Notes under the pieces: model-generated
Told to the model about the DNA's origin: nothing
Database searches by the model: none
The model's input: the letters and a program-made list of their open reading frames with translations, nothing else
In this document: in pieces, positions 22,308-59,284 of the stretch
Numbering within the stretch: position 1 is the first letter of the stretch
Layout of the letters: each line of letters opens with the position of its first letter
Translations under genes and position numbers: made by a program
From: Acinetobacter sp. ANC 3813
Lineage (GTDB): Bacteria > Pseudomonadota > Gammaproteobacteria > Pseudomonadales > Moraxellaceae
Assembly (NCBI RefSeq): GCF_002135435.1
Contig: NZ_NEGK01000001.1
Coordinates: forward strand, 248,001-312,000
Length of the DNA: 64,000 nt
Reading direction: 5' to 3'

Positions 22308-22544
22308 AATTTTCCTTATATTTTAATAATTTATTTAAAAAGATTTTATATATCGAATAAAACTGCAAATCAACAATCCAATCGTCAAATTTCGATGCTA
22401 AAAAATAGAATTGAATTTAGAACTCTTTAATTTTTTTATAGTTTTATCATTTTAATCTGAATATTTTCCCCAGATGACATAGTTATAAACCTAACTAGGC
22501 TCTATAAATAAAGCCCATCAAAACAAAAAATAATAGGACATGGA

Positions 22545-23155
22545 ATGCCTTATAACATCAACAAAACCGGTATTTTTGCTTTAGCTTTGCTGGCCGCCAT
22601 CGTCGCCACACTCTGCGACGCCAACCACGTCTTTACTCAAACACTTAGCTACCCCACTCCCCTATTTTTTCAGCAAGCTTGGTGGGTCTTTCCAGCCTTT
22701 TTCATTGCCTTTTTATTTATGGCAATCAATTACCTATTTTTAAGTCATGCACTTAGACAAAAAATAGATGTGGCTCAAAGCACAACACATGGTAACTGGC
22801 ACAATTTATCCGAAGATTTAACAGCATTTGCCTGCATATATCTGCTCAGCGGCTTTGGCAATTTTCACCCTGCTTTATTGTGCTTTATTTTTTACTTCAC
22901 CTTTATTATTCGGCAGGCTTTCACTTACGAGCGATGCTGGTTATGTCTATTGGCCATTTTATTGGCCATAGGCGGCATGTTCTTTGAAGGACTTTTGGCA
23001 GAATTTGGCTTAGTGGCTTAGTGGCTTAGTGGCTTAGTGGCTTAGTGGCCTATCGGCATAGCGACATGTTTAATGTGCCCTATTGGTTAGGCGGCGTATA
23101 CATGCATGGCGCATTTGCTTTACGCTCTGGTATGCGGGCACTGGTCTATAAATAG
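22545..23155 (+). pseudogene. multi-pass membrane protein gene truncated by an 8-bp tandem repeat
   Basis: The intact frame from ATG 22545 (AGGA upstream) gives 158 aa with four to five hydrophobic segments, including FQQAWWVFPAFFIAFLFMAI, and stops at 23021 inside a tandem repeat. Removing four of the five perfect repeat units joins it in frame to YRHSDMFNVPYWLGGVYMHG and a further 14 residues ending at TAG 23153-23155. This makes a 192-aa protein. The AWWV and YMHG segments faintly recall INSIG-like membrane proteins, but the family is not certain. The gene is either inactivated or phase-variable. Confidence 0.7.
23006..23061 (+). repeat. octanucleotide tandem repeat inside the membrane-protein gene
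   Basis: Five perfect copies of TGGCTTAG (23006-23045) are followed by two decayed copies, TGGCCTAT and CGGCATAG (23046-23061). Because the unit is 8 bp, each gain or loss shifts the frame. With two or more perfect copies in this context the frame meets TAG. Confidence 0.95.
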
Positions 23156-23214: not shown

Positions 23215-23220
23215 TGAAAA

Positions 23221-23297
23221 TGGTGGCTATGACGAGACTTGAACTTGTGACCCCCGCATTATGAGTGCGGTGCTCTAACCAACTGAGCTACATAGCC
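23221..23297 (-). tRNA. tRNA-Met(CAU), elongator type
   Basis: The 77-nt gene including CCA has 5' acceptor half GGCTATG and an anticodon stem-loop CCGCA-CTCATAA-TGCGG, giving anticodon CAT. The first base pairs with the acceptor's last base, unlike initiator tRNA, so it is read as elongator Met. A tRNA-Ile2 (lysidine) identity is less likely but cannot be excluded by eye. Confidence 0.93.
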
Positions 23298-23312
23298 AAA
23301 AACTGTGCGCGC

Positions 23313-23341
23313 ATTATGTGGTTTTATCCTAAGTACGTCAA
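23313..23341 (-). promoter_or_regulatory. predicted sigma-70 promoter of tRNA-Met
   Basis: On the minus strand TTGACG (23341-23336) and CATAAT (23318-23313) are separated by 17 bp. A GC-rich GCGCGC discriminator follows, typical of stable RNA promoters. Confidence 0.7.
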
Positions 23342-23370
23342 GTACCTAATGCGCTTAATTGATCAAAATT

Positions 23371-23748
<378 letters not shown>

Positions 23749-36098: not shown

Positions 36099-36173
36099 AG
36101 GGGCGTCGCCAAGTGGTAAGGCACCGGGTTTTGATCTCGGCATCCGTTGGTTCGAATCCAGCCGCCCCTGCCA
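36099..36173 (+). tRNA. tRNA-Gln(UUG), copy 1
   Basis: The 75-nt gene with CCA has acceptor halves AGGGGCG and CGCCCCT and an anticodon loop TTTTGAT giving TTG. Only one base separates it from the ispE stop codon. Confidence 0.96.
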
Positions 36174-36205
36174 TTAAATTCACCTGTAGATGTATGTTGT
36201 ATTAA

Positions 36206-36280
36206 AGGGGCGTCGCCAAGTGGTAAGGCACCGGGTTTTGATCTCGGCATCCGTTGGTTCGAATCCAGCCGCCCCTGCCA
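36206..36280 (+). tRNA. tRNA-Gln(UUG), copy 2
   Basis: Identical in sequence to copy 1, after a 32-nt spacer. Its flanks TGTATTAAA (36198-36206) and TTTAATACA (36281-36289) are complementary and would extend the acceptor stem in the precursor. Confidence 0.96.
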
Positions 36281-36301
36281 TTTAATACAGCACATCAAAT
36301 T

Positions 36302-36376
36302 AGGGGCGTCGCCAAGTGGTAAGGCACCGGGTTTTGATCTCGGCATCCGTTGGTTCGAATCCAGCCGCCCCTGCCA
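36302..36376 (+). tRNA. tRNA-Gln(UUG), copy 3
   Basis: Identical to the other copies, after a 21-nt spacer. Confidence 0.96.
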
Positions 36377-36427
36377 TTTTCTCAAAAAAGACAGAACATA
36401 CTTTTGTGAATAGCCTGTTAAATCACC

Positions 36428-36456
36428 TTGACAAAACAGCTCATAAATATTAAAGT
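36428..36456 (+). promoter_or_regulatory. predicted promoter for tRNA-Gln copy 4 and prs
   Basis: A perfect -35 TTGACA (36428-36433) lies 17 bp from TAAAGT (36451-36456, four of six). It sits in the 91-nt spacer between copies 3 and 4, so copy 4 and prs may be transcribed separately from ispE. Confidence 0.55.
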
Positions 36457-36467
36457 TCTGCCGCATT

Positions 36468-36542
36468 AGGGGCGTCGCCAAGTGGTAAGGCACCGGGTTT
36501 TGATCTCGGCATCCGTTGGTTCGAATCCAGCCGCCCCTGCCA
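36468..36542 (+). tRNA. tRNA-Gln(UUG), copy 4
   Basis: Identical to the other copies; it lies 36 bp before the prs start codon. Confidence 0.96.
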
Positions 36543-57748: not shown

Positions 57749-59284
57749 ATGAACACTTTTACTAAAAGCGGTTTAGCCCTTTCTATACTGATTGGCTTAA
57801 CAGCTTGCGGCGGCTCTAGCTCGGATGACGCACCATCGGAACCGACACCGACACCGACACCAACGCCAACGCCAACGCCAACGCCAACAACAGTAGCCGA
57901 TAAATTCACAGGTGAATGGATTCAAGGCAACTCAAGCCTTGGAAATAGCAATTGTAATGTTCCGCAAATTACAATCATTAAAACTAGCGACAATTCAGTC
58001 CAAGCTGTGAATGAAGAAGCCGCATATGCCACACACAATAGTACTGAAAAGAGCTGCAGTGGAGAGCTAATTTCTAAACGCTATCAATTACTGCATGATT
58101 TGGTCATTAGCGATATACAACCTGCAGCGACTCTTAGCAATTTCCAATATCATGCAATTAAATTTCAACCTGAAAGAGGCAACACTGCGAACAATCGTGT
58201 ACTGACTTTCTTAAATAACAATAGCTTCTGTATTATTAACAGCACCATTTCAAATCCGAATTACATCATCATGGAGCGAGGCCTGATCAAAGACCCGCTG
58301 AAAGATAGCCGCTGCTATACCAAAAATACCGTTGGATTTTTTACCGCCCTCAAACCAAAAACTAAAGTGACTACAGCTGAATTTAAAACTGCCAGTTTTG
58401 TAAATTCCATAAGCACAACTGATTTTTTAGCGCAGCTGAATGAAATGGGTCAAAATGGCTATAAAATCATAGGCTATAACAGCAAAACGAATGATCAAAG
58501 CAATGTAAACAGCTATATGAAATTAGCCAATGATACGGCACGTTTCAGCCATATCGTTGCTGACCGTAATGCAGCATCTCTCGCTGATAACTATTTCTCA
58601 TGGCGCAATCAATTAAATGAAAAAGGCAAGTCTGGTTATCAGCACCTGCATAGTGTTAGACCGTCCACCGCACTTAATTACAAAGATTATTTCATTAAAA
58701 AAGAGAATGATACTGCGACTTATACCTATGACAGCGGTTATGTTTATCCATTAGTCGATTCCACCCTGCTCATAAATACACTCAATGCACTCGGTGCACA
58801 AGGATGCAAAATCATTGGGTTTTCAAGCTACTTCACCGGTTTGCGCTCAGATGTTCTAGGCGGTAAGGAAAATAGTCCTAAAATTGCAACTTGTGTAAAT
58901 AGCAGTGCACATAACGGCACCTATACTTACCGCTATAAAGACTATCCAACCAACAGCACCAGTGTAGAACGCACTATAGCCCTGCAAACAATGATTGATG
59001 AACAGGCTAAAGAAGGCTACCGCATGGTCAGCCGTTCATTAGATATGAGTTCGACCACAAAAAATGGTTTGCTGTTTATGAAAGACAGCGAAAATAGCAA
59101 TGTAGGCGAGTTTAAAGTCTTCAGCGAAACAGCATTTGGAACATCGACCTATAATGATGTATTGCTGAAACGTTTAAATCAGCAAGGCCAATTAGGCTGG
59201 ATTTTCACCAATAGCCAGCTGATATATGCCACCCAGCCTAAACATCTGCAGACTGATTTGGTGAGCTTCCAGCTTATTGACTAA
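57749..59284 (+). CDS. lipoprotein with a Pro-Thr tract and five DUF4177-like repeats
   Basis: The 511-aa protein has a lipobox LTAC (Cys20), a Ser/Asp patch, and an eight-fold Pro-Thr tract (about 32-47). A cysteine-containing domain follows (about 50-195). Five repeats then carry LN-x2-G-x2-GY/W cores at about residues 230, 289, 345, 415 and 476, e.g. LNEMGQNGY, LNEKGKSGY, LNALGAQGC and LNQQGQLGW. These recall the LNxxGxxGW motif of DUF4177. It is probably surface- or periplasm-facing and anchored. No known enzyme motif was seen. Confidence 0.8.
   Translation: MNTFTKSGLALSILIGLTACGGSSSDDAPSEPTPTPTPTPTPTPTPTTVADKFTGEWIQGNSSLGNSNCNVPQITIIKTSDNSVQAVNEEAAYATHNSTEKSCSGELISKRYQLLHDLVISDIQPAATLSNFQYHAIKFQPERGNTANNRVLTFLNNNSFCIINSTISNPNYIIMERGLIKDPLKDSRCYTKNTVGFFTALKPKTKVTTAEFKTASFVNSISTTDFLAQLNEMGQNGYKIIGYNSKTNDQSNVNSYMKLANDTARFSHIVADRNAASLADNYFSWRNQLNEKGKSGYQHLHSVRPSTALNYKDYFIKKENDTATYTYDSGYVYPLVDSTLLINTLNALGAQGCKIIGFSSYFTGLRSDVLGGKENSPKIATCVNSSAHNGTYTYRYKDYPTNSTSVERTIALQTMIDEQAKEGYRMVSRSLDMSSTTKNGLLFMKDSENSNVGEFKVFSETAFGTSTYNDVLLKRLNQQGQLGWIFTNSQLIYATQPKHLQTDLVSFQLID
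57842..57889 (+). repeat. hexanucleotide repeat tract coding for Pro-Thr
   Basis: Three CCGACA units are followed by four CCAACG units and one CCAACA. The hexamer keeps frame, so slippage would change spacer length rather than switch the gene off. Confidence 0.9.

Follow-up and report, generated by a model that had tools for sequence, protein, structure and literature searches.

A premature stop inside an octanucleotide array of a rare, probably Insig-like Acinetobacter gene: slippage inactivation favored over a contingency switch

Short tandem repeats can disrupt genes by slipped-strand mispairing, and simple-sequence contingency loci are known from Haemophilus and Neisseria. A membrane protein gene of Acinetobacter sp. 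ANC 3813 raises the question of which of the two has happened, since its coding sequence holds a perfect array of the octamer TGGCTTAG. The gene lies in a stretch of 64,000 nucleotides (NCBI RefSeq assembly GCF_002135435.1, contig NZ_NEGK01000001.1, positions 248,001 to 312,000), which was analyzed as a whole and is referred to here as the window. We are fairly confident that the octamer expanded by slipped-strand mispairing within the coding sequence of a rare, probably Insig-like gene and so disrupted it recently in this lineage.

The array and the reading frame it interrupts

Tandem Repeats Finder placed 5.5 copies of TGGCTTAG in the coding sequence, in agreement with the five perfect octamers that an earlier note, made from the letters alone, had counted there. 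The frame enters the array through the codons GAA TTT GGC TTA GTG GCT TAG and ends, as that note had also said, after 158 amino acids at a stop induced by the array. Behind the array, the DNA encodes AYRHSDMFNVPYWLGGVYMHGAFALRSGMRALVYK in a frame of its own, with its stop at 23153-23155, and this side gave a profile match to model positions 144-193. The earlier note had further stated that removing four units yields 192 amino acids and that only a single unit reads through cleanly; the arithmetic is correct (157 + 35), and an in-frame TAG is already present in unit 2. The coordinates of these and the surrounding features are collected in Table 1.

Table 1. Features at the array and around it, in window coordinates
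Feature	Position	Strand	Details and basis
Conserved region upstream of the gene	22433..22544	+	96 of 112 aligned columns (86%) identical to the A. bouvetii locus (L002)
AGGA, ribosome-binding-like site	22535-22538	+	Named by eye
Truncated ORF, probably Insig-like membrane protein	22545..23021	+	158 aa; ORF list; weak collinear NF047899 match
TGGCTTAG array	23006..23049	+	Five full units at 23006-23045, half unit TGGC at 23046-23049; period 8, 100% match; Tandem Repeats Finder
Premature in-frame stop TAG	23019..23021	+	End of unit 2; codon reading
TGGCCTAT/CGGCATAG, the "two decayed copies" of the earlier note	23046..23061	+	Gap-free alignment with homologue codons (A/K)-Y-R-(H/Y)
Orphaned C-terminal coding piece	23048..23155	+	35 codons and TAG; in a frame other than that of the ORF start
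Terminator-like hairpin beside tRNA-Met	23213-23190	-	Scan; 2 hits, against 2.3 expected from shuffles
tRNA-Met, convergent with the gene	23221..23297	-	ARAGORN; Rfam tRNA
RNase P RNA gene, class A	23371..23747	-	Rfam RF00010, 331.7 bits

A comparable array (unit of 7 to 9 bases, at least 2.5 copies, at least 20 bases) was absent from all 20 order-3 Markov shuffles of the window, showing that the array is not a product of chance. Throughout the 3.86-Mb genome, two adjacent TGGCTTAG units occur only here, with one mismatch tolerated. In 464 kb of its own genome (a 12% sample), no second octamer array reached 2.5 copies, nor did any in 800 kb from ten other Acinetobacter genomes; such arrays are uncommon across this sample of the genus.

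Two decayed copies, TGGCCTAT and CGGCATAG, had been proposed to follow the perfect ones. This part of the earlier note did not stand: the stretch aligns without a gap with conserved codons of homologues that have no array, and on this ground we rejected the two as repeat remnants. At the equivalent of positions 23046-23061, the homologues show low octamer self-similarity (4 to 6 of 16 bases). The junction residue is Ala in one homologue (locus L011) and Lys in the other five, so that an origin of the window's Ala codon in the array does not have to be assumed. Most simply, TGGCCTAT and CGGCATAG would be ordinary codons resembling the unit, and they may have helped to seed the slippage.

Homologues, constraint, and protein family

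The gene is present in 7 of 175 Acinetobacter genomes, that of ANC 3813 included, and a profile search found the same seven; within a mixed set of 58 relatives, the only genome with the gene was that of ANC 3813 itself. Four of the six homologues come from carriers with names (A. bouvetii DSM 14964, A. sp. ANC 5054, A. gandensis, and A. amyesii). All six are open and free of an array, with lengths of 194, 193, 193, 193, 201, and 192 amino acids, and two adjacent TGGCTTAG units occur nowhere in any of the six genomes. Their C termini read VP(Y/W)WLG..YMHGAFALR..MR..(V/I)Y plus 1 to 6 residues. The homologue state predicted in the earlier note, a single unit-length and the end GGVYMHG...YK, was found in all six, essentially as GG(V/I/L)YMHG...Y(K/R/Q/N) with one GAVYMHG. 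The result named there as refuting, five-copy homologues that share the early stop, was looked for among the six and not found. Relative to the homologues, the window carries 32 additional bases, equal to four unit-lengths; this number is not a multiple of three, hence the frameshift, and the gain would most simply be explained by slippage. Before the array, 134 of 157 residues are identical to the A. bouvetii protein, and behind it 32 of 34 residues equal its residues 159-192 (32 of 35 in the codon comparison).

Both halves of the gene still look constrained, which argues that the lesion is probably recent. In comparison with A. bouvetii, dN/dS was 0.12 before the array (dS, 0.73) and 0.10 after it (dS, 0.64; 5 nonsynonymous differences in 35 codons). 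The corresponding values for nine neighboring genes were 0.028 to 0.088 (dS, 0.62 to 2.03), meaning that the gene evolves somewhat faster than all nine neighbors tested, yet far from neutrally. Neutrality would lead one to expect about 35 nonsynonymous differences in the tail as against the 5 observed, and as a rough bound, the share of the summed divergence that could have been unconstrained is about 25% at most. For the same stretch, three usable pairs of homologues gave dN/dS values of 0.08, 0.11, and 1.14, the fourth pair being saturated in dS; the measure is noisy because it covers 35 codons, and the value of 1.14 rests on two synonymous differences. The lost tail is invariant among the six homologues at 19 of 36 positions, compared with 63 of 158 before it, and the longest invariant run, the nine residues YMHGAFALR, falls within the tail. 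The perfect state of the array fits a recent origin and also an active variable tract.

The gene adjoins a tRNA-Met on the opposite strand in the loci of all four named carriers (L002 to L005), as it does in the window. The wider gene order in A. bouvetii also matches, with carB, greA, and an acyltransferase on one side and a ferredoxin-like gene and coaD on the other (names from our own reading of the ORFs); the next ORF to the left is not the one found in the window, and the two homologue loci L010 and L011 have other neighbors. Just upstream of the conserved region before the gene, beyond position 22433, 51 of 125 columns are identical to A. bouvetii. Promoter-like matches in the upstream region did not exceed the shuffle level (3, with 3.3 expected).

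A link to phages or plasmids was considered and rejected, as relatives of the protein were found neither in plasmid records nor in viral records, where the search reaches close relatives only; records very close to the window may be absent from these collections. Among the 20 matches listed in a plasmid search at the DNA level, at most 15% of the query was covered, at the tRNA end. The tRNA-Met region (23216-23400) has a 96% identical stretch in a 177-kb A. cumulans plasmid, in which no feature is annotated at that place.

The family match is to the NCBIfam model NF047899, DACBindInsig, which describes bacterial Insig-like diacylglycerol-binding proteins such as MvINS of Mycobacterium vanbaalenii, a homologue of known structure. 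Four of the six homologues were scanned, and all four match collinearly over most of their length (E values of 3.8e-5, 6.3e-3, 1.7e-6, and 6.9e-6); the truncated window protein matches at an E value of 0.003, and three reversed-sequence controls gave no match. A short photosystem model, surely spurious, matches the window protein at an E value of 0.0089, and the weakest of the NF047899 E values therefore means little alone. The scores, 16.4 to 28.1 bits for the four homologues and 17.5 bits for the truncated protein, lie far below the curated cutoff of 280. The best PDB profile match was human Insig-2 (E value of 0.057, not significant alone), collinear over profile positions 34-188, and neither of the two PDB profile matches was a bacterial Insig chain. 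Pfam gave no Insig match at E values up to 1, and its few other matches were weak and below the cutoff. An AlphaFold model, too poor to serve for a fold search (pLDDT, 44.7; pTM, 0.31), has six helices (7-33, 45-78, 85-104, 109-123, 128-153, and 169-192); hydropathy backs the earlier helices and not the last one.

On these grounds, the protein is probably a distant Insig-like relative and not a member of NF047899. It differs from that family also in its distribution, with 7 of 175 Acinetobacter genomes carrying the gene and nothing convincing in class or phylum samples. Two profile matches outside the genus, one among 274 genomes drawn from the class (E value of 3.3e-4) and one among 398 drawn from the phylum (E value of 2.7e-4), own genome excluded, were set aside as partial and weak; the phylum match contains five stops. 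A search of the ANC 3813 genome and 14 controls with NF047899 itself found no match in either and is hence uninformative. The picture is that of a small, patchy family of probably Insig-like Acinetobacter membrane proteins which score far below the cutoff of the current model. According to PMC9233655, the structure of a bacterial homologue of Insig has been solved. In literature searches on Insig, octanucleotide slippage, and repeat phase variation in Acinetobacter, no title among the matches listed concerned the gene or the array, which is weak evidence of absence.

Inactivation, switch, or a product in another form

Under slippage inactivation, a Gly-Leu-Val-Ala stretch, which contains TGGCTTAG and behind it a near copy, may have served as the seed. 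The 32 bases, or four unit-lengths, that the homologues lack shift the frame and let a TAG enter it inside the second unit. To judge from the homologues and from the low-confidence helix prediction, the product retains predicted helices 1 to 5 and lacks the predicted last helix together with YMHGAFALR; it is most probably nonfunctional. The preference of the earlier note for inactivation over a switch is supported by the homologues, all six of which are open without an array. In its frame-shifting perfect unit within conserved coding sequence, its open relatives without an array, and its conserved out-of-frame downstream piece, the locus resembles slipped-strand gene disruption at short tandem repeats with no essential difference, although few octamer arrays were seen in the genus as sampled. 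It looks like an ordinary slippage inactivation.

The alternative of a contingency locus, at which slippage would reversibly toggle the gene within the population, was set aside mainly on frame logic. With a unit length of 8, the three frames share one 24-base cycle, GLVA*WLS, in shifted form, and the reverse strand reads LSH*ATKP; the TGGCTTAG array thus holds a stop in every phase on both strands, once in each 24 bases. An array of at least three units is therefore closed in all six frames. Because translation already ends in unit 2, an identical 158-amino-acid product results from every allele of at least two units, and a one-unit step from five, to four or to six, leaves the protein unchanged; any later change in unit number would likewise have no consequence as long as two or more units remain. 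The open state is a single unit, which offers no array for easy switching back, and the 464-kb sample holds no second octamer array of 2.5 or more copies. A contingency locus would be expected to leave one frame or more open across its array, so that slippage steps alternate between on and off; here every frame is closed. The locus does share with the contingency loci of Haemophilus and Neisseria a perfect intragenic array with a unit that is not a multiple of three, and constraint on both halves would be expected if the gene were on in some cells. Octamer arrays are also known at genes proposed to phase-vary: in H. influenzae biogroup aegyptius, PMC3309571 places a GCATCATC array in the putative hmwA promoter region. 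The window unit differs from those loci in being closed in all frames and open only when single, and we regard a contingency switch as unlikely, with only a slim chance of being correct. A short tandem repeat with a stop codon inside its unit has little prospect of serving as a reversible switch within coding sequence and just disrupts the gene, making annotation as a disrupted gene preferable to annotation as a contingency locus.

Other readings would leave the locus functional. The truncated form of 158 amino acids could be a working, perhaps altered, protein, given that predicted helices 1 to 5 are retained, that 131 of 154 compared codons agree with A. bouvetii in the encoded residue, and that the upstream region is conserved. 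However, none of the six homologues ends early, and what is lost is better conserved among them than the remainder and includes their longest invariant run, so that we consider a working short form improbable, to about the same degree as the switch. Somewhat less credible still is a ladder of termination and reinitiation, in which ribosomes would stop and restart at the TAG/GTG overlap (TAGTG) of each unit and the protein would be made in two pieces. The overlap is indeed present at every unit junction, the last GTG opens onto AYRHSDMF...VYK in frame at any copy number, and the tail still looks constrained. Yet with five units, ribosomes would have to restart several times in a row where no ribosome-binding site is evident, the Leu-Val codons TTA GTG already produce the overlap with no need for selection, and a recent loss accounts for the constraint equally well. 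If the ladder were true, slippage would be harmless; that such a ladder, indifferent to copy number, yields parts of 158 and roughly 36 amino acids that reassemble in the membrane strikes us as the least likely proposal of all. An assembly or sequencing artifact within the repeat is about as doubtful as the ladder itself: the observation rests on a single assembly, but the array of 44 bases is below common read length, errors do not typically produce five perfect units, and the same octamer stands in tandem at another locus in two other Acinetobacter genomes.

The octamer and other repeats elsewhere

Tandems of 16 bases of TGGCTTAG occur in 3 of 175 Acinetobacter genomes, namely, that of ANC 3813 and two others (G123 and G180), while one permuted octamer was found as a 16-base tandem in none of the 175. 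In backward-read controls, the TGGCTTAG pattern had a single match (G194) and the permuted pattern none. In G123, a SUKH-family (SMI1/KNR4) gene is followed, immediately behind its stop codon, by five perfect TGGCTTAG units (L046 1501-1540, G123:C10:5455-5494), and in G180 seven perfect units stand at the same site (L047 1501-1556, G180:C20:13863-13918). This locus is unrelated to that of the window. The two SUKH proteins are 92% identical, showing that the tandem number of TGGCTTAG can differ between relatives; in a further relative (G137), the SUKH gene is largely missing, as is the array stretch. Given 4,178 octamer classes, the coincidence of TGGCTTAG at two loci is mildly unlikely. In IMG/VR, one contig has a TGGCTTAG tandem, of three units, and three permuted octamers were found in 2, 3, and 0 contigs, which places the IMG/VR match at chance level.

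Repeats of other kinds were also seen in the same genome. Outside the window, 18.7 perfect copies of the 9-mer ATGATGGTT (L037 4835-5002, C1:336835-337002) encode (YDG)n near the C terminus of a 345-amino-acid ORF that matches Pfam 8xMP; this array is in frame, so that its length could vary with the gene unbroken. Within the window, four consecutive tRNA-Gln(TTG) genes at 36099-36542 lie partly within a perfect 96-base repeat of 1.8 copies, and adjoining hexamer arrays of ACCGAC and CCAACG at 57841-57888 encode a Thr-Pro tract in a 511-amino-acid ORF, where the tract follows what we read as a lipoprotein-like start.
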